Assembly (NCBI RefSeq): GCF_003330765.1
Contig: NZ_CP024903.1
Span: 992,001 to 1,056,000 of the forward strand
Direction: 5' to 3'
From: Burkholderia pyrrocinia
GTDB lineage: Bacteria; Pseudomonadota; Gammaproteobacteria; Burkholderiales; Burkholderiaceae
Length of the DNA: 64,000 nt
Below, in pieces: positions 10,636 through 34,941 of the stretch. Made by a program: the position numbers and the translations under genes. A model generated the notes under the pieces. That model saw only the letters and a list, made by a program, of their open reading frames with translations. It ran no database searches and had not been told where the DNA came from. Within the stretch, counting starts at the first letter, position 1, and each line of letters opens with the position of its first letter.

Positions 10636-10936
10636 GCCCCGGCGTTAAATACCGCGCCGCCAGCTGTCCTTCAGCCGCTCGACGCGCGCACGGACCGGGC
10701 GGCCGTCTTCCCGCCGCTCGGCGATGTCCGCATGGCGTCGCGCTGCCCGTCGCAGCTGTCCTCTCGGCGGTGAAGGGCCATTCACGGGGGCGTGGATGCA
10801 CATGCTGCGTCGCGGCGATACGCGGGGGTGCGAGTCTGCACGCGCGCTGAGGTAGCATGACGGAATATCCACGATGATCCACGACCTGTTTCGTGATCGA
10901 TTCCCTTCCGTCCATGTACCCATGGTCAAGACAACG
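10636..10936. other. Intergenic region without recognisable gene
   Basis: About 300 GC-rich bases between the Cys/His/Asn protein and the first IclR gene. I find no convincing coding frame, hairpin with T-run, or copy of the GTTCC-N6-GGAAC operator seen at 13093 and 13378. It presumably contains the regulator's promoter, but no good -10/-35 pair stands out. Confidence 0.4.
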
Positions 10937-11815
10937 ATGAGCGACACTCCCGAACCTGCCGCGCCCGGCGACGACGAACCGTCCGGCGGCGCGTCGTCCT
11001 ATCTGGTGCCCGGCCTCGAACGCGGGCTGCGGATTCTCGCCGAATTCTCCGCGCGCGAGCCAGTGCTCGGCGCGCCCGAGCTGTCCAAGCGCATCGGCAT
11101 CCCGCGTACGACCACGTTCCGCCTGCTGCAGACGCTCGAGGCACTTGGCTTCCTCGAGCGCGTGAACGGCGACCGCTATTTCCGGCTCGGCGTCGGCGTG
11201 CTGCGGCTTGGCTTCGAGTACCTGAACTCGCTTGAACTGACCGATCTCGGCGCGCCCGTACTCGAACGGCTGCGCGATTCGACCGGCCTGTCGACGCATC
11301 TGCTGATCCGCGACCAGCGCGACGTCGTGTTCGTCGCGAAGGCACAGAGCAATGCGTCGATGTTCGGTTCGGTGAAGGTGCATGTCGGCACGCGCTTGCC
11401 CGCGCATGCGACCGTGCACGGCCACGTGCTGATGGGCGACCTGACGCGCGACGCGCTGCGCCAGCTCTATCCGGAAAAGCGGCTCGAGCAGTTCACCGAG
11501 CGCACGCCGGGCACCGTCGACGAACTGTACGAACGCGTGCGCCATTACGCGCGGCTCGGCTATGCCGTCAGCGAGGCGGCGTTCGAAAGCGGCATTTCGG
11601 CCGTCACCGCGCCCGTGCGCGATCACTCCGGCTCGATCGTCGCGGCGATCACCGCGACGGTGCCGCGCTCGGAGATCGGCGAGGCCGGCGAAAAGGAAAG
11701 GCTCGTCGAAGCGGTGTGCGGCGCGGCGGTCGACCTGTCGCAGCGACTGAACTACCGGCCGCTCGAAAGCGACCCGACGTTCGCGCATGCGCGCCACAAG
11801 GTCGCGATGTTCTGA
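10937..11815 (+). CDS. IclR-family transcriptional regulator, copy 1
   Basis: A protein of 292 residues from the ATG at 10937; ATGs at 10922 and 10874 are in frame and no ribosome site settles the choice. An N-terminal winged helix-turn-helix (LERGLRILAEFSAREPVLGA, then IPRTTTFRLLQTLEALGFL) is followed by a C-terminal effector-binding domain (about 95-270), the normal IclR layout and length. The region from the helix-turn-helix to LPAHATVHGHVLMGDL is almost the same as in the regulator at 17508-18365, so both probably read the same operator. Candidate operators flank the promoters of the porin and the Rieske operon. The effector is probably a pathway substrate or intermediate (inference). Confidence 0.92.
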   Translation: MSDTPEPAAPGDDEPSGGASSYLVPGLERGLRILAEFSAREPVLGAPELSKRIGIPRTTTFRLLQTLEALGFLERVNGDRYFRLGVGVLRLGFEYLNSLELTDLGAPVLERLRDSTGLSTHLLIRDQRDVVFVAKAQSNASMFGSVKVHVGTRLPAHATVHGHVLMGDLTRDALRQLYPEKRLEQFTERTPGTVDELYERVRHYARLGYAVSEAAFESGISAVTAPVRDHSGSIVAAITATVPRSEIGEAGEKERLVEAVCGAAVDLSQRLNYRPLESDPTFAHARHKVAMF

Positions 11816-11909: not shown

Positions 11910-12989
11910 TCAGAACGAGTGGTGGATCCCGGTCAGCACGATCACCTGGTTCGCGGTGCTCGACACGCCTGCCGTGAAGAACGAGGCCTTCGCGCCGCCC
12001 GAACCATGCTCGTACAGCACGTTCGCGTAGAGCTGCGTACGCTTCGACAGCGCGTAGATGTCGCCGAGTTCGACCTGCGTCCAGCGACGGCCGGCCAGCG
12101 TCGTGGTCGCCGCGCCGCCCGCGATCGTGTTGAATGCGCTGCTGCGGTAGTTCACGCCCGCGTCATAGCTCTGGAACGTGTCCGAAAAGCCGTTCGACTG
12201 CATCTTCGTGCGCGTGTAGAGGCCGTGCACGAGGAAGTCGCCGAACTGGTACGACGCTCCCGCGCCGATGTTCTCGACTTTGTTCGCGATGTAGCCGTTC
12301 GCGGTGTTCTGCCCCTGGAACGAAGCGATACCCGTCTGGCTGATCAGGATCGAGCGGTCATGCTCGTTCGAGTAGACGGCCGACGCCTTGAACGGCCCGT
12401 TCGCATAGTTCAGCGCGACGCCGACCGATTTGCCGGTCGAGAAGTTCGTCGTGTTGCCGAGCGCGATCGTGGCCGCGGCCGAGAAGCCCGCGAAGCTCGG
12501 CGAGCGGTACTTCACCGAATTGTTGTAAGGCACGTTGCCGGTCGCGGCGAGCCCGTCGATGTTGCCAGGGTGGAACGCATACCAGCTCATCGCGAGGTAG
12601 GCCGTGCTGAGCGGATCGAGATAGTCGAACGTCAGCGGCGTCTGGCGGCCGAGCGTCAGCGTGCCGTAGCGGTCCGAGCTGAGGCCGACGAACGCCGCGC
12701 GGTTCCAGATCGTGTTCGCGGTCGCGAACTGTCCGTTGTTCGTATAGAAGCCGTTCTCGAGCTGGAAGATCGTCGACAGGCCGCCGCCGAGGTCTTCCTT
12801 GCCCTTCAGGCCCCACCGATCGGGCTGCGTGTTGCCCTGGATCATCGCCCACTTCGCATGGCCGCCGACGTTGTTCACGTACGCGACACCCGCATCCACG
12901 CTGCCGTACAGCATCACGCTGCTCTGCGCCCACGCGCCCGACGCGGCGCCCAATCCGATGACTGCTGCTGCTATCGCATGCTTGACCAT
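11910..12989 (-). CDS. Gram-negative porin (Porin_4, OmpC/Omp38-like)
   Basis: A protein of 359 residues. The signal peptide (VKHAIAAAVIGLGAASGAWAQ) is followed by SSVMLYGSVDAGVAYVNNVGG, the usual first strand of beta-proteobacterial trimeric porins. GLKGKEDLGGGLSTIFQLE, GRQTPL and the final GIHHSF with C-terminal Phe are also family hallmarks. It forms a general diffusion channel in the outer membrane. It is transcribed divergently from the Rieske operon, and both promoters carry the same palindrome, so it probably provides uptake for that pathway's substrate. Confidence 0.94.
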   Translation of the reverse strand: MVKHAIAAAVIGLGAASGAWAQSSVMLYGSVDAGVAYVNNVGGHAKWAMIQGNTQPDRWGLKGKEDLGGGLSTIFQLENGFYTNNGQFATANTIWNRAAFVGLSSDRYGTLTLGRQTPLTFDYLDPLSTAYLAMSWYAFHPGNIDGLAATGNVPYNNSVKYRSPSFAGFSAAATIALGNTTNFSTGKSVGVALNYANGPFKASAVYSNEHDRSILISQTGIASFQGQNTANGYIANKVENIGAGASYQFGDFLVHGLYTRTKMQSNGFSDTFQSYDAGVNYRSSAFNTIAGGAATTTLAGRRWTQVELGDIYALSKRTQLYANVLYEHGSGGAKASFFTAGVSSTANQVIVLTGIHHSF

Positions 12990-13092
12990 TTGATCTCCTG
13001 ACTCTCCAACCTGATGAAAACGTGGTGTGGCGGCATGCGTAGGGACGGCCGGCCGTCACGCGTTTTTCACCGCCGGGTGGGCTTTTTCGTAT

Positions 13093-13108
13093 GTTCCATA
13101 TAAGGAAC
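13093..13108. promoter_or_regulatory. Candidate IclR operator at the porin promoter
   Basis: The palindrome GTTCCATATAAGGAAC. Its reverse complement differs by one base from the site at 13378-13393. It lies 21 bases downstream of the porin -10 box, where a bound repressor would block transcription. TTCC/GGAA half-sites are typical of IclR-family operators. Confidence 0.7.
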
Positions 13109-13129
13109 AGTGTGCCTCTGGTGGAATGA

Positions 13130-13331: not shown

Positions 13332-13359
13332 TTTACTCGTGGAAAGTCGCTTCTATAAT
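13332..13359 (+). promoter_or_regulatory. Promoter of the Rieske catabolic operon
   Basis: A perfect TATAAT (13354-13359) with TTTACT (13332-13337) 16 bases upstream. Transcription would start near 13366. The 447-base gap between the porin and the operon (12990-13436) holds this promoter, the porin promoter and both palindromes; a small hairpin ACCAC/GTGGT (13255-13271) is the only other structure I see. Confidence 0.6.
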
Positions 13360-13377
13360 CACCATCCATAAACTGAT

Positions 13378-13393
13378 GTTCCTAATATGGAAC
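13378..13393. promoter_or_regulatory. Candidate IclR operator at the Rieske operon
   Basis: The palindrome GTTCCTAATATGGAAC, 18 bases downstream of the TATAAT box, mirrors the arrangement at the porin promoter. The matching spacing on both sides argues for one regulator controlling both units. Confidence 0.7.
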
Positions 13394-13436
13394 AAACGAG
13401 AAGCAAACGAGAGTCGATCAGAAGGAAGGGTGTGAG

Positions 13437-13754
13437 ATGTCTGAACAATGGATTTGCGCCGGACACGCCGGCGCGCTGTCGGAAGACACGCCGATCGAGT
13501 TCAAGCGGACCGACGGCGTCGAAATCGGGATCTACCGCGTCGGCGACGACGTGTATGCGCTCGAGAACGTGTGCCCGCATGCGTACGCGCTGCTGACGCA
13601 GGGGTTCGTCGACGAAGGCACGGTCGAATGCCCGCTGCACGAGGCCGTGTTCGACATCAAGACGGGCGAATGCCTGAAGGGTCCGGGCGGACGCGCGCTG
13701 AAGCAGTACGCGGTGCGCCTCGCCGGCGAGGAAATCCAGATCAAGGTGGAATGA
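13437..13754 (+). CDS. Rieske-type [2Fe-2S] ferredoxin of a ring-hydroxylating system
   Basis: A protein of 105 residues, the usual size of a free Rieske ferredoxin. The cluster ligands are present: Cys46/His48 (CPHAYALLTQG) and Cys65/His68 (CPLHEAVFD). AGGAAGGGTG precedes the ATG. It should pass electrons from the FAD reductase at 24251-25495 to the oxygenase at 14123-15193, in the cytoplasm. It is the first gene of the operon. Confidence 0.93.
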   Translation: MSEQWICAGHAGALSEDTPIEFKRTDGVEIGIYRVGDDVYALENVCPHAYALLTQGFVDEGTVECPLHEAVFDIKTGECLKGPGGRALKQYAVRLAGEEIQIKVE

Positions 13755-13755
13755 C

Positions 13756-14067
13756 ATGAAAGAAGCGACCGTCAACTTCAATCCCTTCCTGAAGCCGTGG
13801 GTGGCGCCGCAGCCGAACAACGTCGCCGGCAAGGGGCAAATCGAGATCCCCGGTCAGGTCGAGAACCGGATCTGGCAGAACCGCAAGGCCGAGCCGACCC
13901 AGTACGAGAACGACCTCGGCGATGCGCTCGAACGCGTGTTCGAAGCCGGTGCAACCGAGCTGGACGACGTCGTCGCGGGCCTGAACCGCATCGGCTTCCG
14001 AGCGCCGGACGGCACGCCGTGGACACCCGAGCGCTTCCGCGCCGAACTGGCCTCGCTCGCGGAATGA
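13756..14067 (+). CDS. Small protein with recombinase-like helix-turn-helix
   Basis: A protein of 103 residues, one base after the ferredoxin stop. The C-terminal third (DVVAGLNRIGFRAPDGTPWT and a following helix) resembles the 'Recombinase' winged-helix motif of serine recombinases. No catalytic recombinase domain is present. The N-terminal half has a conserved-looking start (VNFNPFLKPWVAPQPNNVAG). Proteins of this kind have been annotated next to Rieske oxygenases as 'recombinase-like helix-turn-helix' proteins. Because it is wedged between ferredoxin and oxygenase genes, it is more likely an oxygenase-associated protein than a DNA enzyme (inference). Confidence 0.7.
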   Translation: MKEATVNFNPFLKPWVAPQPNNVAGKGQIEIPGQVENRIWQNRKAEPTQYENDLGDALERVFEAGATELDDVVAGLNRIGFRAPDGTPWTPERFRAELASLAE

Positions 14068-14122
14068 CCGCGCCGAGCGCGTGACCCGCCGACCCGACGA
14101 CAACCGCATCCGGAGCACACTG

Positions 14123-15193
14123 ATGACGTCCCCCGTACAACACGCATCCCAACACGACCCGGTCCGTGACTATCTCGACCGCGGCATCAAGAATTACTGG
14201 TATCCCGTCGCGCCGAGCTGGCAGGTGTCGAACGCGCCTGTCGGCCTCACGCGCCTGTCCGAGCAGATCGTGCTGTGGCGCGATCACGAGGGCAAGGTTC
14301 ACGCGCTGGAAGATCGCTGCCCGCACCGCGGCGCGCGCCTGTCGCTCGGCTGGAATCTCGGCGGCAACATCGCCTGCTGGTATCACGGCATCGAAATCGA
14401 CGGTGGCGGCACGGTCAACCGGGTGCCGGCCGTGTCGAACTGTCCGATGGAAGGGACGAAGTGCGTGAAGTCGTATCCGGTCGAAGAGAAGGCCGGCGCG
14501 ATCTTCCTGTGGTTCGGCGACGAAGCGCACGGCGAGCCGGCGCCGCTGAACCTGCCCGAGGAACTGGTCGCCGACGAGTACGGCCACTTCCTGTGCGTGT
14601 CGAACTGGAAGTGCAATTACCAGTACGCGATCGACAACGTGATGGACCCGATGCACGGCGCGTACCTGCACGCGACGTCGCACTCGATGGCCGAAGGCGA
14701 CAAGCAGGCCGACATGCGTGTGCGCAAGACGGAAACGGGCCTGATGTTCGAGAAGGTCGGCCAGCGCGACGTGAACTTCGACTGGGTCGAACTCGGCGAA
14801 ACGGGCTGCCTGTGGATGCGCCTCGCGATTCCGTACAAACAGAAGTTCGGCCCGGGCGGCAACTTCGGGATCATCGGCTTCGCGACGCCGGTCGACGGCG
14901 ACAACTGCCAGGTCTACTTCTGGCGCACTCGCAAGGTCAGCGGCTGGCAGCGCGACGTGTGGCGCTTCATGTACCGCAACCGTCTCGAAGGCCTGCACTG
15001 GGACGTGCTCGAGCAGGACCGCTACGTCCTCGAAAGCCTCGCACCGCAGGCGCGCGATCACGAATACCTGTACCAGCACGACGTCGGCGTCACACGCGTG
15101 CGCCGGATGTTGCGCCAGCGCGCACAGGAACACCTGACCGCGCTCGACGCGCATCGCGCGGCGCAAGCCGCTTCGGAGCCCGCGAATGGCTGA
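14123..15193 (+). CDS. Rieske non-heme iron oxygenase, catalytic subunit (phthalate/vanillate-type)
   Basis: A protein of 356 residues, starting at the ATG at 14123 (CGGAGC upstream). The Rieske cluster ligands are Cys66/His68 (CPHRGARLS) and Cys85/His88 (CWYHG). The mononuclear iron site is His178/His183 with bridging Asp175 (DNVMDPMHGAYLH). The size and the D-N-x-x-D-x-x-H spacing fit the homotrimeric alpha-only group that includes vanillate and dicamba demethylases and phthalate 4,5-dioxygenase. It hydroxylates or demethylates an aromatic or cyclic substrate with O2. The substrate cannot be read from sequence. The gene overlaps the next SDR by 8 bases. Confidence 0.92.
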   Translation: MTSPVQHASQHDPVRDYLDRGIKNYWYPVAPSWQVSNAPVGLTRLSEQIVLWRDHEGKVHALEDRCPHRGARLSLGWNLGGNIACWYHGIEIDGGGTVNRVPAVSNCPMEGTKCVKSYPVEEKAGAIFLWFGDEAHGEPAPLNLPEELVADEYGHFLCVSNWKCNYQYAIDNVMDPMHGAYLHATSHSMAEGDKQADMRVRKTETGLMFEKVGQRDVNFDWVELGETGCLWMRLAIPYKQKFGPGGNFGIIGFATPVDGDNCQVYFWRTRKVSGWQRDVWRFMYRNRLEGLHWDVLEQDRYVLESLAPQARDHEYLYQHDVGVTRVRRMLRQRAQEHLTALDAHRAAQAASEPANG

Positions 15194-15956
15194 GCTCGCA
15201 CCGGTCGTGTCGCTCGCAGGGCGCCGCGTGCTCGTCACGGGCGGCGCGCGCGGTCTCGGCGCGGCGTTCGTGAAGGCGCTGGTGGCAGCGGGCGCGCAGG
15301 TCGCGTTCGGCGACGTGCTGGCCGACGAAGGCCGGGCGCTCGCCGCGCAGCTTGCGGAAGCCGGCCATGCCGCGCATTTCTTCGCGCTCGACCTGGCCGA
15401 TCCGGCGAGCGTTGCCGCATTCGTCGCGCAGGGCGCGGCGGCACTGGGCGGCATCGACGCGCTGATCAACAACGCGGCGATCACGAACTCGGGCGGCAAG
15501 CTGTCGACGGAGCTCGACGTGTCGACCTGGGACGCCGTGATGAACGTGAACGTGCGCGGCGTGTGGCTCGTCAGCAATGCGGCGCTGCCGTACCTCGCGC
15601 AATCGGGCCGCGGCGCGATCGTGAACCTCGCATCGGACACCGCGTTGTGGGGCGCGCCGAAGCTGCTCGCGTACGTCGCGAGCAAGGGCGCGGTGATCGC
15701 GATGACGCATGCGCAGGCGCGCGAGTTCGGCGCGCACGGCGTGACGGTCAACGCAGTCGCGCCGGGGCTGACCGAAGTCGAGGCGACAGCCTACGTGCCG
15801 GCCGAGCGCCATGCGTTCTACATGCAGGGCCGTGCGCTGACGCGCGCGCAGATGCCCGACGACGTGACGGGCCCCGTGCTGTTCCTGCTGTCGGACGGCG
15901 CGCGCTTCGTGACGGGCCAACTGCTGCCGGTGAACGGCGGCTTCGTAATGAATTGA
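15186..15956 (+). CDS. Short-chain dehydrogenase/reductase (classical SDR)
   Basis: A protein of 256 residues, the normal size. Cofactor motif TGGARGLG, NNAA motif, and the catalytic Ser with YVASK are all present; the C-terminal GQLLPVNGGFVMN is typical of the family. It should oxidise or reduce an alcohol/ketone, or rearomatise a dihydrodiol made by the preceding oxygenase, with NAD(P). The 8-base overlap with the oxygenase gene supports consecutive steps. Confidence 0.9.
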   Translation: MAELAPVVSLAGRRVLVTGGARGLGAAFVKALVAAGAQVAFGDVLADEGRALAAQLAEAGHAAHFFALDLADPASVAAFVAQGAAALGGIDALINNAAITNSGGKLSTELDVSTWDAVMNVNVRGVWLVSNAALPYLAQSGRGAIVNLASDTALWGAPKLLAYVASKGAVIAMTHAQAREFGAHGVTVNAVAPGLTEVEATAYVPAERHAFYMQGRALTRAQMPDDVTGPVLFLLSDGARFVTGQLLPVNGGFVMN

Positions 15957-15985
15957 TGTTTTTACCCTTGATGAAGGAGAGGACG

Positions 15986-16513
15986 ATGGCGGACGCCGAT
16001 CTCGAACGCAAGTCGTGGGACCAGCCGGAAGGCGCAAGCTTTGACGACTGGATGGAAGGGCGCGTTGCGCGCTATGCGACGCGGCGCTACGACTGGGACG
16101 CACTGAAGTTCCAGGCCGACTACGACCCGAAGTACCGCCGTGCGCAGATGCGCTACGTCGGCACGGGCGGCACGGGCGTCGCGAAGGACGTCAACACGGT
16201 GCCGGCCGGCAACTTCACGTTCTCGACGATGGTCATCCCGGCCGGCAACATCGGCCCGAGCCACATCCATATCGACGTCGAGGAAATCTTCTTCGTGCTG
16301 CGCGGCAAGATGAAGGTGATCTGCGAGCGCGACGGCGAGACGTGGGAAGCGATCCTCGGCGAGCGCGACCTGATCTCGGTGCCGCCGGGCGTGTATCGCA
16401 CGGAAATCAACATCGGCGAGGAAGATGCGCTGATGTGCGTGATGCTCGGTTCGTCGAAGCCCATCACGCCGACGTATCCGCCCGATTCGCCGCTCGCGAA
16501 GATCAAGCGTTGA
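15986..16513 (+). CDS. Cupin-domain protein
   Basis: A protein of 175 residues. AAGGAGAGG stands before the ATG. The cupin core (about 75-160) has motif 1 (GPSHIHIDVEEIFFVLRG, with HxH and Glu) and motif 2 (GERDLISVPPGVYRTEIN), in which the usual second-motif His is replaced by Arg. It may bind a metal with three ligands. It could be a small dioxygenase, isomerase or binding protein within the pathway; sequence alone does not decide. Confidence 0.82.
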   Translation: MADADLERKSWDQPEGASFDDWMEGRVARYATRRYDWDALKFQADYDPKYRRAQMRYVGTGGTGVAKDVNTVPAGNFTFSTMVIPAGNIGPSHIHIDVEEIFFVLRGKMKVICERDGETWEAILGERDLISVPPGVYRTEINIGEEDALMCVMLGSSKPITPTYPPDSPLAKIKR

Positions 16514-16531
16514 GACGGAGCGGATGAAGCA

Positions 16532-17428
16532 ATGAGTGTCATCGACAAACGTGAACGCGACCGCACCGCGGCGTTCGCCGCGCTGCTCGGGCAGTTTCCG
16601 GAGCAGCGTTGCGCGGCCGGTGCGGCGGGCACGATCGGTTATCGCGAGGCCGGTGCGCAGCATGCGGGCCGCGCGCTGCCCGTCGTGTTGCTGCACGGGA
16701 TCGGCTCGGGTGCCGCATCGTGGGTCCGCCAGCTCGACGCGCTCGGCGCATCGCGGCGCGTGCTCGCGTGGGATGCGCCCGGCTATGGCGTGTCGACGCC
16801 CGTGCACTGTGCGTCGCCGGCCTCAGCCGATTACGCCGCATCGCTGAACGCGTGGCTCGAGGCACTCGGCATCGAACGCTGCGTGCTGGTCGGTCATTCG
16901 CTCGGCGCGATCATTGCGGGCGGTCTCGCCCGCGTGATGCCCGCGCGGATCGCCGGCCTGCTGCTGGTCTCGCCCGCGGGCGGCTACGGCAGCGCACCGG
17001 CCGAAACACGCGAATCGCGCCGCGACGCGCGGCTCGCAATGCTCGCTGAACTCGGCCCGGCCGGTCTCGCCGAGCAGCGCAGCGGCAACATGCTGTCGGG
17101 TTTCGCGAGCGAGGATGCCCGCGCCTGGGTGCGCTGGAACATGGCGCGCATCGTGCCGGCCGGCTACACGCAGGCCACGCATCTGCTCGCGAACGCCGAT
17201 CTGGCAAGCGATCTCGCGGGCTTTCGCGGTCGCACGGCCGTGGCGGTCGGTGCGAACGACGCGATCACGCCGCCCGCTGCGTGCGAGCGGATCGCCGCGG
17301 CCGCGCACGTCGGGTTGCAGGTGATTCCGCAGGCCGGTCATGCCGGCTACGTGGAAGCGCCGGCCGTTTATTCCGCACTGATCGACGCGTTCTGTCGGCA
17401 ATGCGACATGCAGCGAGGACTGGTATGA
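16532..17428 (+). CDS. Alpha/beta-hydrolase (meta-cleavage hydrolase-like)
   Basis: A protein of 298 residues. Oxyanion motif HGIGSG, nucleophile Ser123 in GHSLG, an acid (GANDAITPP) and a His (AGHAGYVEAP) are all in the expected order. In operons with extradiol dioxygenases, such hydrolases cleave the C-C bond of ring-opened products. An extradiol-type VOC enzyme is encoded at 23292-24254, so that role fits. An esterase or lactonase role cannot be excluded. Confidence 0.86.
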   Translation: MSVIDKRERDRTAAFAALLGQFPEQRCAAGAAGTIGYREAGAQHAGRALPVVLLHGIGSGAASWVRQLDALGASRRVLAWDAPGYGVSTPVHCASPASADYAASLNAWLEALGIERCVLVGHSLGAIIAGGLARVMPARIAGLLLVSPAGGYGSAPAETRESRRDARLAMLAELGPAGLAEQRSGNMLSGFASEDARAWVRWNMARIVPAGYTQATHLLANADLASDLAGFRGRTAVAVGANDAITPPAACERIAAAAHVGLQVIPQAGHAGYVEAPAVYSALIDAFCRQCDMQRGLV

Positions 17429-17432
17429 ACTG

Positions 17433-17504
17433 CCCCCACGCTCACATTCGTTCGCTGCCCCCCGAGGGGGCGGATGCCTCCCTTGGGGCGGCCCGGCGGG
17501 AGGC
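17433..17504 (+). repeat. GC-rich intergenic repeat, copy 1
   Basis: A unit of about 70 bases beginning CCCCCACGCT, with the core GCTGCCCCCCGAGGGGGC and then CGGCCCGGC. It shares these blocks with 18368-18437. It can form two hairpins. The second pairs GCCTCCC with GGGAGGC, and its right arm ends three bases before the ATG of the IclR gene, so it holds the Shine-Dalgarno sequence. Confidence 0.8.
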
Positions 17505-17507
17505 ATC

Positions 17508-18365
17508 ATGAGCGAACCGCTGCAACAACCCGAATCCGAGAACGCGAAGGCCGAGGCCAGCTACGTGGTGCCGGGCCTCGAACGCGGGCTGCGGATTCTC
17601 GCCGAATTCTCGCCGCGCGAGCCCGTGCTCGGCGCGCCCGAGTTGTCGAAGCGGCTCGGCATTCCGCGCACGACGGTGTTCCGTCTGCTGCAGACGCTCG
17701 AATCGCTCGGCTTCCTCGAGCGTGCGGACAAGGATCGCAACTACAAGCTCGGCATTGCCGTGCTGCGGCTCGGCTTCGAATACCTGAGCTCGCTGGAACT
17801 GACCGATCTCGGCTTGCCCGTGATCGAGAGCTTGCGCGATGCAACCGGCTTCACGACGCACATCGTGATCCGCGACGGCCGCGACGTGGTGTTCGTCGCG
17901 AAGGCGCAGAGCCAGTCGCCGGTGTTCAGCTCGATCCGCGTGAACGTCGGCACGCGCTTGCCCGCACATGCGACGACCCACGGCCACGTGCTGATGGGCG
18001 ACCTGTCGCTGAAGGAACTGCACGCGCTGTATCCGGAAGGCGCGCTGAACCGGATGACGAGCGCGACGCCGTCGACGGTCGACGCGCTGTACGAAGTGAT
18101 CCGCGAGGACGCGCTGCGCGGCTACGGCGTCAGCAATTCGTCGTTCGAGCGCGGTATCTCGGTGGTCACGGCGCCGGTGCGCAACGAGACGCAGAGGATC
18201 GTTGCGTGCATCACGGTGACGGTGCCTAAACCGGAGATCGACGCGGCGCTGATCGCGGACGGACTGATCGACAAGGTGCAGCGCGCGGCGGCGGAACTGT
18301 CGCGGCGGCTCAATTACCGCTCGGATGACGAGCACACGTTTCTGAAGGCGTTAGGACTGAAATGA
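17508..18365 (+). CDS. IclR-family transcriptional regulator, copy 2
   Basis: A protein of 285 residues with the same layout as the regulator at 10937-11815: winged helix-turn-helix (LERGLRILAEFSPREPVLGA, IPRTTVFRLLQTLESLGFL) and an effector domain. Identity is very high through the DNA-binding part and drops in the C-terminal third, so the two may read one operator but answer different ligands (inference). It lies inside the operon it probably controls, which would give autoregulation. Both flanks carry the GC-rich repeat. Confidence 0.92.
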   Translation: MSEPLQQPESENAKAEASYVVPGLERGLRILAEFSPREPVLGAPELSKRLGIPRTTVFRLLQTLESLGFLERADKDRNYKLGIAVLRLGFEYLSSLELTDLGLPVIESLRDATGFTTHIVIRDGRDVVFVAKAQSQSPVFSSIRVNVGTRLPAHATTHGHVLMGDLSLKELHALYPEGALNRMTSATPSTVDALYEVIREDALRGYGVSNSSFERGISVVTAPVRNETQRIVACITVTVPKPEIDAALIADGLIDKVQRAAAELSRRLNYRSDDEHTFLKALGLK

Positions 18366-18367
18366 GA

Positions 18368-18437
18368 CCCCCACGCTTGCTTTGCGCGCTGCCCCCCGAG
18401 GGGGCTGTCGGCCCTCTTGGGACGGCCCGGCGAGGAC
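18368..18437 (+). repeat. GC-rich intergenic repeat, copy 2
   Basis: A second copy of the unit at 17433-17504 (shared CCCCCACGCT, GCTGCCCCCCGAGGGGGC and CGGCCCGGC). Its end (GAGGACC) provides the ribosome site for the SDR at 18445. Here the second stem is less perfect than in copy 1. Confidence 0.8.
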
Positions 18438-18444
18438 CGACGAC

Positions 18445-19234
18445 ATGATTCAGATCGATCTGACCGGGCAGGTGGCGGTGGTGACGGGCGGTTCGTCCGG
18501 CATTGGCCTCGCGACCGCCGAACGGTTCCTGCAGGCTGGCGCGTCGGTCGCGATTTGCGGCCGCGACGGCGAGCGCCTCGCGCGTGCCGAGGCCATGCTG
18601 AACGAGAAATACCCGGGCGCACAACTGCTCGCCGTGCGCTGCAACGTGCTCGACGAGGCCGACGTGACCGCGTTCGCGCAAGCCGTGTCCGCCCGCTTCG
18701 ACCGAGCCGACATGCTCGTGAACAACGCGGGCCAGGGCCGCGTGTCGACCTTCGCCGACACGACCGACGACGCGTGGCGCGAAGAGCTCGAACTGAAGTA
18801 CTTCAGCATCGTCCGCCCGACGCGCGCGTTCGTGCCGCTGCTGCGCGACGCGCAGGCGCCGACGATCACCTGCGTGAACTCGCTGCTCGCGCTGCAGCCG
18901 GAACCGCACATGGTCGCGACGTCGTCGGCGCGTGCGGGCGTGCTGAGCCTCGTGAAGTCGCTCGCGACCGAACTGGCGCCGCAGCGCATCCGCGTGAACT
19001 CGATCCTGATCGGCATCGTCGAGTCGGGCCAGTGGCGCCGCCGCTACGAAGCGCAGGCGCAGCCCGGCGAAAGCTGGGAAGACTGGACGGGCGCGCTCGC
19101 CCGCAAGAAGAACATTCCGCTGAATCGCTTCGGCAAGCCCGACGAGGCGGCCTGGGCACTTTTTTATCTCGCAACGCATCTGTCGTCCTATACGACGGGC
19201 AGCCATATCGACGTTTCTGGAGGGTTTGCACGCC

Positions 19235-19242
<8 letters not shown>
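18445..19242 (+). CDS. SDR-family protein lacking the catalytic Tyr and Lys
   Basis: A protein of 265 residues. The cofactor motif TGGSSGIG and NNAG are intact, and the overall fold pattern is classical SDR. At the YxxxK position the sequence reads VATSSARAGV: Thr159 and Arg163 stand in for Tyr and Lys. Ser146 remains. It may bind NAD(P) with altered chemistry, or work as a lyase or binding protein. Its stop overlaps the next gene's start region by 8 bases (19235-19242), arguing for tight coupling with the ThDP enzyme. Confidence 0.85.
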
Positions 19243-21710
<2,468 letters not shown>

Positions 21711-21782
21711 CCGGGCCATTGAGCGTCCGCCCGCGCCACGGCGAGGGTGGGTGTGCAGAGACAGACTTGTGGGACTTGTGAC

Positions 21783-23273
21783 ATGACTTCTTTCGATACG
21801 AGCCTCGTACCCGACGGCAACATCCTGATCGGCGGCGAGTGGCGGCGCGGCCGTGGCGTGCCTTACGCGAGCATCTATCCGGCCGACCAGTCGCTGAATA
21901 GGGAAGTGTCGACGGCGAACGCGGAAGACGCGGCCGAAGCCGTCGAGGCCGCCGACGCCGCATGGCGCCGCGCCGACTGGGCCGGGTTGAAGCCGCACCA
22001 GCGCGCGCAGGTGCTGTACCGCATCGCGGATCTGATCATGCAGCGCCACGAGGTGCTCGCGAACCTGCAGCGCCGCGACAACGGCAAGCCGATCAGCGAG
22101 ACGCGCGTGCTAGTGGCGAGCGCCGCGAACACGTTCCGCTATTTCGCGGCCTGCCTCGAAACGCTCGACGAAGAACTGACGCCGTCGCGCGGCGACTACC
22201 TGACGATGAGCGTGTACGAGCCGATCGGCGTGATCGCGGCGATCACGCCGTGGAATTCGCCGATCGCGTCCGACGCGCAGAAGCTCGCGCCGGCGCTTGC
22301 GGGCGGCAACGCGGTGGTGCTGAAGCCGGCCGAAGTCACGCCGCTCGCGTCGCTGGCGCTCGCGCGCATCTGCGAGGAAGCCGGCGTGCCGAAGGGCGTG
22401 CTGAGCGTGCTGCCGGGCAAGGGTTCGGTGATCGGCGACGTGCTCGTGCGTCATCCGCTGGTGAAGAAGGTGTCGTTTACCGGCGGCACCGAAGTGGGCC
22501 GCGGCATCGCGCGCATCGCGGCCGAGAAGCTGATGCCCGTGTCGCTCGAACTCGGCGGCAAGTCGCCGACGATCGTATGCGACGACGCCGATCTCGATCA
22601 CGCGGTCAACGGCGTGCTGTACGGCATCTTCAGCTCGTCGGGCGAGGCCTGCATCGCGGGTTCGCGGCTGTTCGTGCAGCGTTCGGTGTACGACGAATTC
22701 ATGAAGCGCCTGGTGGCCGGCGCACGCAAGCTGCGGGTGGGCGACCCGACGCGCCCCGACACGCAGATGGGGCCGCTGATCACGGCGAAGCACCGCGAAT
22801 CGGTGGAGCGCTACGTCGCGCTCGGGCTGGAAGAAGGCGGCCGCCTGCTGTGCGGTGGCGAGCGGCCGTCGGGCGACGGGCGCGAGAATGGCTTCTTCTA
22901 TCAGCCGACGATTCTCGAGGGCTTGCCGAACAGCGCGCGCATCTGCCAGGAAGAAATTTTCGGGCCCGTGCTCGTCGCGATGCCGTTCGACGACGAAGCG
23001 TCGCTGATCGCGCAGGCCAACGACAGCGTATTCGGTCTTGCCGCCGGCATCTGGACGCGCGACTACAAGCGTGCATGGCGCATCGCGCGCGCGCTCGAAA
23101 CGGGCACCGTATGGATCAACACGTACAAGCTGTTCTCGATCTCCACGCCGTTCTCGGGCTGGAAGGAGAGCGGGATGGGCCGCGAGAAGGGTCGTCTCGG
23201 CATCCGCGAGTACATGCAGCAAAAGAGCCTTTACTGGGGCTTGAACGACGCGCCGCTGCCGTGGGCGAACTGA
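21783..23273 (+). CDS. NAD(P)-dependent aldehyde dehydrogenase
   Basis: A protein of 496 residues, typical length. Motifs include the substrate-channel Asn (PWNSPIAS), the NAD-binding SFTGGTEVGR, the general-base Glu (LELGGKSP) and the nucleophilic Cys (SSGEACIAGSR). The start at 21783 has only a weak GGGAC before it; a GTG at 21747 is possible but less likely. It would oxidise the aldehyde released by ring cleavage or ThDP chemistry in this operon. Confidence 0.9.
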   Translation: MTSFDTSLVPDGNILIGGEWRRGRGVPYASIYPADQSLNREVSTANAEDAAEAVEAADAAWRRADWAGLKPHQRAQVLYRIADLIMQRHEVLANLQRRDNGKPISETRVLVASAANTFRYFAACLETLDEELTPSRGDYLTMSVYEPIGVIAAITPWNSPIASDAQKLAPALAGGNAVVLKPAEVTPLASLALARICEEAGVPKGVLSVLPGKGSVIGDVLVRHPLVKKVSFTGGTEVGRGIARIAAEKLMPVSLELGGKSPTIVCDDADLDHAVNGVLYGIFSSSGEACIAGSRLFVQRSVYDEFMKRLVAGARKLRVGDPTRPDTQMGPLITAKHRESVERYVALGLEEGGRLLCGGERPSGDGRENGFFYQPTILEGLPNSARICQEEIFGPVLVAMPFDDEASLIAQANDSVFGLAAGIWTRDYKRAWRIARALETGTVWINTYKLFSISTPFSGWKESGMGREKGRLGIREYMQQKSLYWGLNDAPLPWAN

Positions 23274-23291
23274 GCGAAGGGGAATGACGCA

Positions 23292-24254
23292 ATGAGCATT
23301 TTGGGAATCGAGCAGATCACGTACGGCGTCGACGACCTCGCGACCTGCCGGCGCTTTTTCGCCGACTGGGGGCTGAAGGAAGTCGCGCACGACGACACGC
23401 GCGCGCGCTTCGAGACGATGAACGGCTGCACCGTGCTGGCCGTCAAGGCCGACGATCCGGCGCTGCCGCCCGCGTTCGAAGCGGGGCCGACACTGCGTGA
23501 AGTCACGTGGGGCGTCGCGACGCAACAGGAACTCGACGCGCTGCGCGACAAGCTCGCCGGCCAGCCGGGCTACTACACGCACGACGATGCGGTGGGCTGC
23601 ATCGATCCGAACGGGATGGCGATCCGTGTCGAAGTCACGCGCAAGCGCTCGCTCGACATCACGGGCTCGCCGTCGAACGTGTGGGGGCAGACGCTGCGCG
23701 TCGACCAGCCGAGCCCGATCTATGCACGCGCGGAGCCGGTCGAGGTCGGGCATGTCGTGTTCTTCACGAACTGCCTCGCCGCGCAGGAAACGTTCTATCA
23801 CGACCTGCTCGGCTTCGAGATGTCGGACCGCTACCCGGGCCGTGGCGCGTTCATGCGCTGCGCGCCGCACGGCGGCCACCACGACCTGTTCCTGCTCGCG
23901 CTGCCGAATGGCAAGCGCGGCCTGAACCACGTCGCGTTCACCGTGCGCGATATCCATGAAGTGTTCGGTGGCGGCATGCACATCGACCGCTGCGGCTGGG
24001 AAACCCAGCTCGGCCCGGGCCGCCACCCGGTGTCGTCCGCGTACTTCTGGTACTTCCAGAATCCGGCCGGCGGCCTGATCGAGTACTACGCGGACGAGGA
24101 CGTCCTGACGCCCGAGTGGCAGCCGCGCGAATTCGAGCCGGGCCCGACTGTGTTCGCCGAGTGGGCCGTCGACGGCGGCCTCGACGGCAACACGCGCCGG
24201 CAGAAAAACGCGAAGGCGCCGGAAGGCAAGTTCATGACGGAGCGCAAATCATGA
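23292..24254 (+). CDS. Two-domain VOC enzyme, extradiol-dioxygenase-like
   Basis: A protein of 320 residues with two VOC modules (about 5-120 and 150-270), the layout of two-domain type I extradiol dioxygenases. The second module carries the full 2-His-1-carboxylate site: His154 (GHVVFF), His213 (LNHVAF) and Glu264 (IEYYAD). It probably cleaves a catechol-like ring next to the hydroxyls with Fe(II) and O2. The C-terminal extension (about 280-320) is rich in charged residues. The stop overlaps the next start (ATGA). Confidence 0.85.
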   Translation: MSILGIEQITYGVDDLATCRRFFADWGLKEVAHDDTRARFETMNGCTVLAVKADDPALPPAFEAGPTLREVTWGVATQQELDALRDKLAGQPGYYTHDDAVGCIDPNGMAIRVEVTRKRSLDITGSPSNVWGQTLRVDQPSPIYARAEPVEVGHVVFFTNCLAAQETFYHDLLGFEMSDRYPGRGAFMRCAPHGGHHDLFLLALPNGKRGLNHVAFTVRDIHEVFGGGMHIDRCGWETQLGPGRHPVSSAYFWYFQNPAGGLIEYYADEDVLTPEWQPREFEPGPTVFAEWAVDGGLDGNTRRQKNAKAPEGKFMTERKS

Positions 24255-25495
24255 CCGATGCGAACACGCAGGCGCAGCCCGCGCCGGCCACGGTCGTCGT
24301 GATCGGCGGCGGGCAGGCGGCCGGCTGGGTGTTGAAGACGCTGCGCGCGGAAGGCTACGCGGGCCGCCTCGTGATGATTGCCGACGAGCCGCACTTGCCG
24401 TACGAGCGTCCGCCGCTGTCGAAGGCCGTGCTGGCCGGCGACGCCGATATCGAAACCGTGCGCGTCGTGCGTCCCGACGAATTCGACGCGTTGAACGTCG
24501 AAGCATGGCAGCCGGAACGCGCGGCGTCGATCGACCGCGCGCGCCGCGTGGTGACAACCGCCAGCGGCCGCGAGATCGAATACGACCGGCTCGTGATCGC
24601 GACCGGCGGCACGTCGCGCCGCCTGCCGGACGCGATCGTGAAGACGGCGAATTTGCACTACCTGCGCACGCTCGACGAAGCGGCCGCGCTCGGCGAGAAG
24701 CTGCGCGCCAGCCGGCGCGTGCTCGTGATCGGCGGCGGCTGGATCGGCCTCGAAGTCGCGGCGACCGCGCGCAAGCTGGGTGTCGAAGCGGTCGTAGTCG
24801 AAGGTGCGCCGCGCTTGTGTGGCCGCTCGGTGCCGCAGATCGTGTCGGATTTCCTGCTCGACCTGCATAGCGCGAACGGCGTCGACGTGCGCCTTGGCGC
24901 AGCGCTCGCGTCGCTCGACGCGCAGCCGGACGACGCGTCGCAAGTGCGCGCGACGCTCGCCGACGGCACGACGATCGACGCCGATTTCGCGGTGGCCGGC
25001 ATCGGCCTCGCGCTGAACGCGTCGCTCGCGAGCGACGCGGGGCTGGCCGTCGACGACGGCATCGTCGTCGACGAATTCGGCGCGACGAGCGACCCGGCGA
25101 TCTTCGCGTGCGGCGACGTCGCGAATCATCACAACGGCTGGCTGAAGCGGCGCGTGCGGCTCGAATCGTGGGCGAACGCGCAGAACCAGGCGATCGCGGC
25201 CGCGAAAGCCGTGCTCGGCGTGCGCGCGCCGTACGCCGAGATCCCGTGGTTCTGGTCCGATCAGTACGACGTGAACCTGCAGATCCTCGGTGATCTGCCG
25301 GCCGATGCGCAGCTCGTCGTGCGCGGCGATCTCGCCGCGCGCCGCGCGACGCTGTTTTTCCTTGGCGACGGGCATGTGAGAGGTGTCATCGCCGTAAACA
25401 ACGCGCGTGAGCTGAAGCTCGCGCGCAAATGGATGAACCAGGGCCGGGCAGTGGATACGGAAGCCCTGGCAGACACAACCAAAGCGCTTGCCTGA
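24251..25495 (+). CDS. FAD-dependent ferredoxin reductase of the Rieske system
   Basis: A protein of 414 residues, matching BphA4-type reductases. It has an N-terminal FAD fold (VVVIGGGQAAG), the flavin signature PYERPPLSK, an NAD fold (VLVIGGGWIGLEVAA), a second FAD contact (IFACGDVAN) and the C-terminal dimer domain (WFWSDQYDVNLQILG). It should take electrons from NADH and reduce the ferredoxin at 13437-13754, completing the three-component oxygenase. The start overlaps the VOC gene by ATGA. Confidence 0.93.
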   Translation: MTDANTQAQPAPATVVVIGGGQAAGWVLKTLRAEGYAGRLVMIADEPHLPYERPPLSKAVLAGDADIETVRVVRPDEFDALNVEAWQPERAASIDRARRVVTTASGREIEYDRLVIATGGTSRRLPDAIVKTANLHYLRTLDEAAALGEKLRASRRVLVIGGGWIGLEVAATARKLGVEAVVVEGAPRLCGRSVPQIVSDFLLDLHSANGVDVRLGAALASLDAQPDDASQVRATLADGTTIDADFAVAGIGLALNASLASDAGLAVDDGIVVDEFGATSDPAIFACGDVANHHNGWLKRRVRLESWANAQNQAIAAAKAVLGVRAPYAEIPWFWSDQYDVNLQILGDLPADAQLVVRGDLAARRATLFFLGDGHVRGVIAVNNARELKLARKWMNQGRAVDTEALADTTKALA

Positions 25496-25522
25496 CCGGC
25501 AAACGACCAGGAGACACCCCGC

Positions 25523-26923
25523 ATGAGCACTTTCGACAACGTCGTGGCCGGTCGCGCCACGATGGAAGCTGCCGCCTCCACGCCCGGCGCGATCATCGCA
25601 CGGCTCGAGCGGCTTCCGGCCAACGCGATGCAGATCCGCGCGCGCGTGCTGATCGGCACCGCGACGTTCTTCGACGGCTTCGACGTGATCACGATCGCGG
25701 CGACGCTGCCGCTGCTGATTCACAAATGGGGGCTGTCGCCAACGCAGATCGGCATGCTGATCGCGTCCGGCGCGATCGGCCAGCTGATCGGCGCGTTCCT
25801 GTTTCCCGCACTGGCCGAGAAGCATGGCCGCGTGAAGGCGATCGCGTGGAGCTCGGCCGTGATCGGCATCACGAGCATCGCATGCGGCTTCGCGCCGACC
25901 TTCGAGATCTTCGTGCTGCTGCGGATCCTGCAGGGGCTGGGGCTCGGCGGCGAGCTGCCGGTCGCGGCGACGTACATCAACGAGATCACGCGCGCGCATG
26001 GCCGCGGCCGTTTCGTGCTGCTGTACGAGATCGTGTTCCCGATCGGCCTGCTCGTGTCGATGGGGCTCGGCGCGTGGCTCGTGCCGCGGTTCGGCTGGGA
26101 GATCATGTACTTCGTCGGCGGGCTGCCGCTGATCCTGTCGCTCGTGCTCACGCGTCTCGTGCCGGAATCGCCGCGCTGGCTCGCGTCGCGCGGGCAGCTC
26201 GCGGAAGCCGGGCGTGCGGTCGGCGTGTTCGAAGCGTCGGTGCGCGGCGAACTGCCGCCCGTCACGCAGACGGCCGCGTTCGACGAGATGGTGCGTCAGC
26301 ATCCGAAGCGCAAGATGAGCGACCTGTTCAGCGCCGCATATCGCAAGCGCACGCTCGCGGTGGCGACGTTGTGGGCGACCTGCGGGTTCATCCAGTACGG
26401 GCTGTCGACGTGGCTGCCGACGATCTACAAGAACTTCTATCATGCGCCGCTGCAACTCGCGCTCAACCTCGCGGTGATCGGTTCGGTGGCGGGTGTGCTC
26501 GGTTCACTGGCGTCGGCGCTGCTCGTCGACAAGCTCGGCCGCAAGCCGGTGATCGTGTGGTCGTTCGTGCTGTGCGCGCTGTCGCTGGCGCTCGCGGGTA
26601 TCTACCACGCATCGTCGGTGTATGTCGTCGCGCTCTTCTGTTCGCTGTCGCTCGGGTTGATGGCGTCGGGGTTCATTACCGCGTACGTCTATACGCCGGA
26701 GCAATATCCGACCAGCATCCGCGCGTCGGGCTGCGGGCTCGGCAGCGCGTGGCTGAAGATCGCGTCGTTCGTCGCGCCGATGGTGGTGCCGCACGCGATC
26801 ATCGGCGGGAACCTCGCGCCGGCGTTCTACCTGATCGGCGTCGTGCCGCTGATCGCGGCGGTGACCGTGCACTTCGTCGGGATCGAGACGAAGGGGAAGG
26901 TGCTCGAAGCGCTTGAAGCGTAA
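25523..26923 (+). CDS. MFS transporter, aromatic acid:H+ symporter type
   Basis: A protein of 466 residues with twelve predicted membrane helices. TM1 has FFDGFDVITIAATLPLL, with the Asp typical of the AAHS family (PcaK, BenK), and the loop after TM2 has an R/K-rich family motif (FPALAEKHGR). It should bring the pathway substrate, probably an organic or aromatic acid, across the inner membrane. It closes the operon and is followed by a terminator. Confidence 0.91.
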   Translation: MSTFDNVVAGRATMEAAASTPGAIIARLERLPANAMQIRARVLIGTATFFDGFDVITIAATLPLLIHKWGLSPTQIGMLIASGAIGQLIGAFLFPALAEKHGRVKAIAWSSAVIGITSIACGFAPTFEIFVLLRILQGLGLGGELPVAATYINEITRAHGRGRFVLLYEIVFPIGLLVSMGLGAWLVPRFGWEIMYFVGGLPLILSLVLTRLVPESPRWLASRGQLAEAGRAVGVFEASVRGELPPVTQTAAFDEMVRQHPKRKMSDLFSAAYRKRTLAVATLWATCGFIQYGLSTWLPTIYKNFYHAPLQLALNLAVIGSVAGVLGSLASALLVDKLGRKPVIVWSFVLCALSLALAGIYHASSVYVVALFCSLSLGLMASGFITAYVYTPEQYPTSIRASGCGLGSAWLKIASFVAPMVVPHAIIGGNLAPAFYLIGVVPLIAAVTVHFVGIETKGKVLEALEA

Positions 26924-26954
26924 GGGCGGCCGGTAGCGGCGGATGATGCGACGA

Positions 26955-26980
26955 GGCCCGGGCGATGTCCGGGCCTTTTT
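26955..26980 (+). terminator. Rho-independent terminator of the Rieske operon
   Basis: Stem GGCCCGG / CCGGGCC with a 7-base loop, directly followed by TTTTT. It lies 31 bases after the transporter stop and marks the operon end. Confidence 0.85.
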
Positions 26981-29227: not shown

Positions 29228-29240
29228 GCGGGATCGTTCG

Positions 29241-33691: not shown

Positions 33692-33951
33692 GATGATGTC
33701 TCCTTGTGTTTGTGCAGGACGGCAGGTCCAGCCGATTGCGGTTCTGACGACCTGATCTGGATCAACTGGCAAGGAGAGTTTGTGGAAATCGGCCGGGCCG
33801 AACAAACGATATTTCGTGCGTCAATTCATCATTTTTTGTAATAGACGCAGCGTGCAACAACATTGTCGGGCGCGGTTCCGGCGTGCGCAAGCCATGGCAT
33901 CCATCAGACGGAAACGCCATGACGGATGACCGAAAACGTGAAGCGTCGAGC

Positions 33952-34848: not shown

Positions 34849-34914
34849 TGGGGAACGGGTGTCTCCGTACAGCTTTTTGTAAGCGATTCCCGTTTCGGCG
34901 GTGCAACGGGAGAC

Positions 34915-34941
34915 GCGCCCGGCGGGCGTTTCCCGCCGGGC
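34915..34941. terminator. Strong GC hairpin after the cupin gene
   Basis: An 11-base-pair stem (CGCCCGGCGGG with its complement) and a CGTTT loop. No T-run follows on either strand, so termination is plausible but not certain. It separates the LysR gene from the cupin-oxidase-oxygenase genes. Confidence 0.5.

Follow-up and report, generated by a model that had tools for sequence, protein, structure and literature searches.

Fourteen genes on the forward strand of the Burkholderia pyrrocinia genome form an operon that probably encodes the uptake and breakdown of kynurenate (4-hydroxyquinoline-2-carboxylate), a reading to which we assign a probability of roughly 0.6. The operon occupies positions 13437 to 26923 of the window, by which is meant the whole 64,000-nucleotide stretch analysed here (contig NZ_CP024903.1, positions 992,001 to 1,056,000; G000:C2:992001-1056000), taken from a source genome of 8.0 Mb in three contigs, and it is accompanied by a divergent porin gene. 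Gene identities come from gene calls and from profile scans with Pfam and NCBIfam; the substrate and every individual step set out below are what we infer. An initial annotation of the window had described one operon with a complete three-component Rieske oxygenase, of which all components and metal ligands were found, and had expected the gene products to open a ring and to handle an amino-containing or 2-keto fragment, which fits the present reading well. The enzyme classes that it listed are present, with a second short-chain dehydrogenase/reductase (SDR) and a small HTH_62 protein left out of the list, and the porin that it assigned to the operon exists and is divergent, lying outside the interval that had been given for it.

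In the proposed route, kynurenate would enter through the porin and a carrier of the major facilitator superfamily (MFS), the Rieske oxygenase would introduce two hydroxyl groups at C7 and C8, and the first SDR (SDR-A) would rearomatise the cis-diol to 7,8-dihydroxykynurenate. An enzyme of the vicinal oxygen chelate (VOC) superfamily would then carry out extradiol cleavage between C8 and C8a, which would leave a pyridine bearing a 2-oxo-acid side chain (5-(3-carboxy-3-oxopropenyl)-4,6-dihydroxypicolinate); a reductase (here SDR-B, the second SDR) would saturate this chain. A thiamin diphosphate (ThDP) enzyme would decarboxylate the 2-oxo acid, and an aldehyde dehydrogenase (ALDH) would convert the resulting aldehyde to 5-(2-carboxyethyl)-4,6-dihydroxypicolinate. 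The cupin and the alpha/beta hydrolase may together hydrolyse the pyridone, at one C-C and one amide bond, to glutarate and 2-aminofumarate/iminosuccinate, and an aspartate dehydrogenase (AspDH) would reduce the iminosuccinate to L-aspartate, so that the carbon ledger would read C10 = CO2 + C5 + C4.

The classical kynurenate (quinoline) pathway of Pseudomonas is reportedly due to Taniuchi, Hayaishi and co-workers in the 1960s. Its step list in KEGG and the old literature (EC 1.14.99.2, 1.3.1.18, 1.13.11.10 onward) comprises dioxygenation, dehydrogenation and C8-C8a extradiol cleavage, followed by side-chain reduction, decarboxylation of the 2-oxo acid and oxidation of the aldehyde, and for each of these steps the operon appears, by analogy, to supply a fitting enzyme class, one for one. 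Extradiol cleavage beside the ring nitrogen should give an amide, which an ordinary meta-cleavage hydrolase should not use, and it is for this reason that the kynurenate pathway needs an unusual pair of enzymes, a ThDP decarboxylase and an ALDH; to judge by sequence, both classes are present here, and in 42 and 43, respectively, of the 47 further genomes or records described below. Kynurenate breakdown in pseudomonads has been described as proceeding via 7,8-dihydroxykynurenate to glutamate, alanine and organic acids (PMC5610271, PMC11354673), and a section of a 2024 review states that certain pseudomonads metabolise kynurenate. The reported glutamate and alanine correspond to the C5 unit and to the C4 unit less CO2, as the carbon ledger requires; in this respect the C5 and C4/C3 skeletons agree with the classical pathway.

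The ending in glutarate and iminosuccinate, with capture of the latter by AspDH, is our own proposal, suggested by the presence of the AspDH gene; a 4-hydroxypyridine-2-carboxylate ring would yield exactly iminosuccinate. The operon enzyme scores above the curated cut-off of its family model (see the table below) and has the NAD(P)-binding motif GFGAIG. The purified, active AspDH of Klebsiella pneumoniae has 254 amino acids, a mass of 26.8 kDa and a GxGxxA motif (PMC5554190), and the AspDH gene in the K. pneumoniae copy of the operon encodes 254 amino acids, 26,816 Da and the motif GYGAMA. By length, mass and motif the Klebsiella product appears to match the characterised enzyme, and activity can be ascribed to it on the strength of that match.

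Enzyme classes and active sites

The Rieske system consists of a ferredoxin, a flavin adenine dinucleotide (FAD) reductase and an oxygenase alpha subunit with CxH/CxxH and D/H/H ligands, the Rieske ligands of the alpha subunit being C80, H82, C99 and H102 and its second motif D189/H192/H197; no beta-subunit gene is found among the fourteen operon genes. The alpha subunit belongs to the VanA_C group and was not matched by Ring_hydroxyl_A in a genome-wide scan. Its nearest solved relatives are DdmC (92 bits), a putative phthalate 4,5-dioxygenase and carbazole dioxygenase. DdmC, carbazole 1,9a-dioxygenase and 2-oxoquinoline 8-monooxygenase, which are alpha-only Rieske oxygenases, are all among these near relatives; the alignments are partial, at 92 bits or less, and the substrates and gene neighbourhoods differ.

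The VOC enzyme retains the His/His/Glu site that the initial annotation had called intact (H154, H213, E264), with at least 97% conservation in 114 aligned sequences; the active-site alignments comprised 89 to 114 collected sequences per gene. In its AlphaFold model (mean predicted local distance difference test score of 75, with a weak C-terminus) the secondary structure is repeated in two similar halves, and the two tandem VOC modules suggested by the model, together with the 2-His-1-Glu iron site, place the enzyme in the type I extradiol class. The model is consistent with an extradiol enzyme and silent on its substrate.

SDR-A adjoins the oxygenase gene and has a normal YxxxK site (YVASK). 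The active site of SDR-B is atypical, with TSSAR in place of YxxxK, and its closest solved relative by far is Q9HYA2 (PDB 3lf1; 353 bits, next best 135), which we take to be a Pseudomonas aeruginosa protein described as having an atypical active centre, and on which nothing relevant was found in the open-access literature. The argument for the substrate does not rest on SDR-B. Conservation of at least 97% was likewise observed for the glutamate E55 of the ThDP enzyme, for the triad S123, D243 and H270 of the alpha/beta hydrolase (106 sequences), for H104, H106, E110 and E111 of the cupin (106 sequences; numbered from the TTG at 15953) and for C302 and E268 of the ALDH (112 sequences). What had been called a C-C hydrolase-like enzyme is indeed an alpha/beta hydrolase; its best NCBIfam match is the model of the bifunctional PcaDC enol-lactonase, far below the cut-off (116 against 390 bits). 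The NCBIfam models of June 2026 give operon members generic names (PRK07062, PRK07064, PRK13303).

Recurrence and variation of the gene set

A GTDB genome collection yielded 490 pattern-matched stretches, 479 of which encode a VOC relative, and the best 80 of the 479, Burkholderiaceae loci from named genomes, were kept; within these 80 the closest VOC relatives are from Burkholderia, mostly with cepacia-complex names, at 93-97% identity. A second table covered 47 further genomes or records with a VOC relative, many of them as cut stretches. Identity and coverage thresholds were applied in this table and in the active-site alignments, so that an absent match may mean that the gene is divergent or the stretch cut. 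Stretches shorter than 4-5 kb (e.g. L082) were excluded from the surveys of neighbouring genes and of kynurenine genes, and the tabulation that covers the 47 also took in all 80 loci.

The thirteen genes other than that of the IclR-family regulator are all present in 74 of the 80 loci; five of the six incomplete loci (L010, L051, L065, L072 and L082) run to the contig end, and the sixth, L074, has no MFS match. Paraburkholderia xenovorans LB400 carries the complete operon (L038). Since a VOC relative is encoded in 479 of the 490 stretches and the thirteen-gene core is complete in 74 of the 80 that were kept, the recurrence of the gene set is not due to chance. Among the 47 further genomes or records, matches were found for the oxygenase in 45, ALDH in 43, the ThDP enzyme in 42, AspDH in 41, HTH_62 in 40 (counted by tblastn; the protein is short and divergent, so that misses are likely), the alpha/beta hydrolase in 37, the cupin and SDR-A in 36 each, and SDR-B in 33. 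This table includes K. pneumoniae, two Acinetobacter baumannii records and Novosphingobium resinovorum (the latter without a ferredoxin match), and further carriers whose lineage, by protein names, resembles Cupriavidus, Ralstonia, Pandoraea, Comamonadaceae and Pseudomonadaceae. In a different arrangement, much of the set is shared by Klebsiella, Acinetobacter, Novosphingobium and other lineages; in the first two it is grouped into an upper block (ferredoxin, HTH_62, oxygenase, SDR-A, VOC enzyme, reductase and carrier) and a lower block (cupin, hydrolase, SDR-B, AspDH, ALDH and ThDP enzyme).

The operon is not peculiar to the source genome: of 200 genomes sampled from the family, 98 encode a VOC relative, and databases list the operon's members generically. 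VOC relatives were also found in 11 of 300 genomes of the order, in 14 of 150 in the family of G196, in 3 of 247 in the order of G279 and, at a looser cut-off, in 14 of 398 of the phylum, with five genomes at 33-39% identity; these five matches are probably other enzymes, and the stretches fetched around them contain no operon. In the family of G196 the oxygenase accompanies the VOC gene in 11 of 12 newly fetched loci, the VOC gene of the twelfth lying at a contig end. A search by AspDH in the family of G058 gave matches in 14 of 248 genomes, and of 10 that were fetched, 8 carry the operon; L185 and L186, from the same family, hold AspDH relatives of 47% and 34% identity with the rest of the operon absent from the stretch fetched. 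Delftia acidovorans, the former Pseudomonas acidovorans and a textbook organism of the quinoline pathway, holds a VOC relative with 79% identity to the VOC query used.

The HTH_62 protein is a close companion of the operon. It is encoded once in the source genome, and 12 genomes of the 300 sampled from the order contain it with a score above the cut-off, this sample being identical, by its handles, to that of the VOC census; all 11 VOC-positive genomes are among these 12, and the twelfth, G438, is 84% complete. Simple counting gives a probability of 3e-19 for this co-occurrence, or 3e-14 at genus level, both optimistic on account of relatedness. The gene lies near the oxygenase gene in most copies and, in G405, on a different contig from the VOC gene. 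Pfam labels the family (PF20552) recombinase-like, a label that may mislead, because the protein is a near-exclusive companion of the oxygenase operon in the sampled genomes of the order.

The copies vary in their peripheral functions. Electron transfer to the oxygenase occurs in two versions, one with a ferredoxin and an FAD reductase (Burkholderia, Klebsiella, Acinetobacter and others), the other with a single DmmA-like reductase (22 of the 47; e.g. L105-L107, L175, L187-L190 and L254), the remaining genes being much alike. Transport is variously by MFS, TctC, ATP-binding cassette or DctP systems, and transporters are also the commonest class in the flanks of the relatives (81 of 122 listed frames scanned; 25 of 112 families shown). 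A molybdenum (Mo) hydroxylase of the xanthine dehydrogenase family is found in 4 of the 47: it adjoins the oxygenase gene in two genomes of one genus, G553 and G517 (L136, L137), and the VOC gene in an incomplete second copy of the cluster on plasmid pNK84 of Caballeronia sp. NK8 (L129), and in G328 (L107) it lies nearby, about 3.5 kb beyond the MFS gene. A CoxG-like protein follows it in G553 and NK8. On pNK84 (L128/L129) two cluster copies lie side by side, the second consisting of ferredoxin, HTH_62, oxygenase, ThDP and VOC genes and continuing with the Mo hydroxylase, the CoxG-like protein and, at a greater distance, an XdhC gene; an aminotransferase-like stretch falls in an unannotated gap (L129, 11746-12471). 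Nine of the 47 have, within the cluster or close to it, an FAD monooxygenase, usually between the oxygenase and VOC genes; among solved proteins its best match is 6-hydroxynicotinate 3-monooxygenase. Neither the Mo hydroxylase nor the FAD monooxygenase has a match in the window or the 80 loci, and both are absent from 34 of the 47 other stretches.

Weighing of the substrate

The two accessory enzymes are typical of routes for N-heteroaromatic compounds, and they might allow quinaldate and xanthurenate to be converted to the same diol. They also raise the possibility that the true substrate is another bicyclic N-heteroaromatic acid, such as quinaldate, xanthurenate or a substituted 4-quinolone carboxylate, degraded by the same logic, with kynurenate at best an intermediate or side substrate. 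The chemistry and the role of AspDH would be identical, the peripheral enzymes do differ among the copies, and the two electron-transfer versions of the oxygenase might differ in substrate. This alternative is nevertheless unlikely, as the accessory enzymes are unmatched in so many copies; the common substrate therefore seems to need no prior hydroxylation, and kynurenate is the simplest such compound.

Several observations weigh against kynurenate as the substrate, or against individual steps. The nearest solved relative of the oxygenase, DdmC, is a demethylase, which makes dioxygenation uncertain; SDR-B lacks the usual catalytic Tyr and Lys. No SDR-B match was found in 9 of the 42 ThDP-bearing genomes or records (G517, G553, G399, G558, G913, G1340, G1362, G1311 and G1390), six of which had at least 34 kb examined, and no ALDH match in G558, so that in these copies the corresponding steps must be served otherwise. 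The accessory enzymes are missing from most copies, and the Mo hydroxylase is nearest to 4-hydroxybenzoyl-CoA reductase, with quinoline 2-oxidoreductase fourth among its solved relatives. The tryptophan 2,3-dioxygenase (on C1) and kynureninase of the source genome have no match in 156 fetched stretches, a set that includes several stretches from one genome or without the operon, and aminotransferases are not recurrently linked to the operon in the flanks of its relatives; a pathway fed with kynurenate from outside is not defined by linkage to genes leading from tryptophan to kynurenate. Apart from AspDH, the operon enzymes have no assayed substrate in the literature seen. We take P. aeruginosa to be a carrier of the operon; only if it is one does its kynU phenotype count here, and repression is a possible explanation of it. 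In rich medium, kynurenate builds up to about 100 uM in a kynU mutant of that species (PMC4938989). Finally, A. baumannii A1S_0954, A1S_0956, A1S_0957 and A1S_0958, four lower-block genes that were matched to the operon through gene order and names, show a 2.2-3.7-fold increase on mucin, where genes for benzoate and other aromatics rise as well (PMC5757984), the main text of which gives no other tags in the A1S_094x-096x range; this co-induction does not single out kynurenate.

The mucin response and the proximity of the oxygenase to dicamba O-demethylase would both suit a monocyclic or methoxylated plant aromatic acid, which the VanA_C-type oxygenase would convert to a catechol by demethylation or hydroxylation and the VOC enzyme would open, with the alpha/beta hydrolase, weakly like BphD/HsaD, as C-C hydrolase, a transporter of the aromatic-acid type, and AspDH acting on an amino-acid side chain or in the balance of nitrogen or redox equivalents. 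This reading is quite improbable, since it leaves unexplained the Mo hydroxylase in some copies and the occurrence of ThDP (42), ALDH (43), AspDH (41) and cupin (36) genes alongside that of the VOC enzyme among the 47 genomes or records, in which many of the misses are cut stretches. Likewise, an ordinary BphD-type meta-cleavage route was rejected as the leading reading because it leaves the ThDP enzyme, the AspDH and the cupin without work. The operon resembles the homoprotocatechuate and biphenyl pathways in its VOC enzyme, weakly (HpaD, 63 of 321 bits), and in its ALDH, fairly well (HpaE, 473 of 638 bits), with all matches to HpaD/HpaE and BphC/BphD below the equivalog cut-offs; we know of no ThDP enzyme, AspDH or cupin in those meta-cleavage pathways. 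The route of the riboflavin/lumichrome (Lum) operon is similar in that a multi-component Rieske oxygenase, an extradiol dioxygenase and a xanthine-oxidase-type enzyme act on an N-heteroaromatic compound and a decarboxylation depends on thiamin (PMC12746152). The Lum pathway was rejected as a match: its oxygenase has alpha and beta subunits (LumC/LumD), its substrate, order of steps and end products are different, and AspDH is not met in the parts of PMC12746152 consulted.

The initial annotation did not recognise the combination of genes as a described pathway, and a search for a known substrate to which the same set is already assigned, made in the open-access literature with subscription journals and preprints outside its scope, found no gene assignment either for this set or for kynurenate degradation; step by step, however, the set fits the classical kynurenate pathway, to which it would add the aspartate-forming last steps proposed here. 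In the same literature the locus tags of the P. aeruginosa orthologues receive passing mentions only, and the JMP134 genome paper has no match for AspDH or kynurenine. An assignment published in subscription journals or preprints, perhaps with gene names, is somewhat unlikely and would be compatible with the kynurenate reading: the operon is common in well-studied genera, and AspDHs of P. aeruginosa and R. eutropha have already been characterised (cited in PMC5554190), but the open-access literature gave no such assignment and the NCBIfam names are generic.

Gene layout, control region and significance

The coordinates of the operon and its control region are collected in the table. Intergenic gaps run from -17 to +79 bp with the gene starts as first used; the start of the reductase gene was later set at an ATG that overlaps the VOC stop codon. 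The operon is similar in GC content to the surrounding DNA.

Table 1. Features of the operon and its flanks, in positions of the window.
Feature	Position	Strand	Evidence
IclR-family regulator (PcaR/PobR-like), candidate regulator beyond the porin	10874..11815	+	IclR_C; TIGR02431 below cut-off
Gram-negative porin, divergent from operon	11910..12989	-	Porin_4 166 bits
Palindrome TGTTCC-N6-GGAACA, operator candidate, porin side	13092..13109	.	one of two exact sites in genome
Promoter-like TTTACT-16-TATAAT	13332..13359	+	consensus scan
Palindrome TGTTCC-N6-GGAACA, operator candidate, operon side	13377..13394	.	other of two exact sites in genome
Rieske-type ferredoxin	13437..13754	+	Pfam Rieske 66.9 bits; CxH-16-CxxH
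HTH_62 (PF20552) small protein	13756..14067	+	102 bits
Rieske oxygenase alpha, proposed kynurenate 7,8-dioxygenase	14081..15193	+	Rieske and VanA_C; alternative start ATG 14123
SDR-A, proposed cis-dihydrodiol dehydrogenase	15186..15956	+	adh_short 169 bits; YVASK at 163
Cupin, proposed ring-opening or C-C hydrolysing step	15986..16513	+	Cupin_2 (frame read from 15563)
Alpha/beta hydrolase, proposed amide or C-C hydrolase for pyridine remnant	16532..17428	+	Abhydrolase_6/1
IclR-family regulator inside operon, candidate repressor	17508..18365	+	IclR_C 98.5 bits
SDR-B, proposed side-chain reductase	18445..19242	+	PRK07062 479 bits, cut-off 266
ThDP-dependent enzyme, proposed 2-oxo acid decarboxylase	19226..20902	+	PRK07064 978 bits, cut-off 495; GDG-N motif
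L-aspartate dehydrogenase, proposed iminosuccinate reductase	20895..21710	+	PRK13303.1-1 562 bits, curated cut-off 479
ALDH, proposed formylethyl-dihydroxypicolinate dehydrogenase	21747..23273	+	Aldedh 578 bits
Two-domain VOC extradiol dioxygenase, proposed 7,8-dihydroxykynurenate 8,8a-dioxygenase	23292..24254	+	Glyoxalase 53 bits; HpaD/BphC relatives
FAD ferredoxin reductase (glutathione-reductase type)	24251..25495	+	Pyr_redox_2 219 bits, Reductase_C (read from 24116)
MFS transporter, aromatic-acid/H+ symporter type, proposed kynurenate importer	25523..26923	+	TIGR00895 225 bits, below cut-off 419
Terminator-like hairpin with T-rich tail, directly 3' of last gene	26953..26977	+	11-bp stem

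The palindrome occurs at exactly two sites in the 8.0-Mb genome, both between the porin and the operon, and a reversed control at none. Of the 76 loci with at least 75 bp upstream, all but L087 have its core box, GTTCC-N6-GGAAC, at a distance of 24-44 bp ahead of the ferredoxin match (75 of 76), and the box is found nowhere else in the loci counted; distant lineages mostly lack the exact box. The operon-side site is directly downstream of the promoter-like element, the scan for which is weak by itself (2 found in 14.7 kb against 1.4 expected). This arrangement suggests a repressor-like geometry, with either IclR protein as a candidate binder, and most copies of the operon contain or adjoin an IclR gene; the gene beside the porin recurs there in Caballeronia L133 and L134, where the porin has the identical divergent placement. 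A regulator of the IclR type would, in this role, repress porin and operon from both palindromes until an inducer is present, and the operator candidate, being unique in the genome, makes the regulon easy to test. Terminator-like sites are no more numerous than in shuffled sequence (8 against 9.9), so that the hairpin behind the last gene is suggestive through its position alone.

Other loci in the window include a second Rieske locus on the reverse strand (32315-40978), with a Ring_hydroxyl_A oxygenase (39653-40978), an ALDH, a rubredoxin/reductase fusion, an FAD-dependent oxidoreductase (DAO), a LysR regulator and an MFS carrier. On the forward strand, positions 27560-30263 encode a hybrid-cluster protein of the hydroxylamine reductase family followed by an NADH reductase resembling MmoC/BenC; a Burkholderia ambifaria plasmid (L130) has a stretch 89% like the hybrid-cluster protein part of this region near matches to the VOC, reductase and MFS genes. 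Also on the forward strand, 10099-10635 matches the NCBIfam model TecA, of a family of type VI secretion effector deamidases (320 bits, cut-off 220).

A more far-reaching reading, which we hold tentatively and at somewhat less than even odds, is that the kynurenate pathway is encoded in its entirety by this operon and ends in glutarate and AspDH-trapped iminosuccinate, with HTH_62 as a dedicated pathway protein and with the Mo hydroxylase and FAD monooxygenase variants funnelling quinaldate and xanthurenate into it; HTH_62 would in any case serve as a sequence marker for the operon. AspDHs have so far been studied for biotechnology, and the proposed ending, of which we know no earlier description, would explain their physiological role. 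If the reading is true, the orphan enzymes of a 60-year-old pathway would gain sequences, and their genes would be open to deletion and expression and could be followed in communities of the gut, lung and soil. Kynurenic acid, a product of tryptophan, acts on both the nervous and the immune system, and the copies of the operon in Klebsiella and Acinetobacter could allow these organisms to consume host kynurenines.

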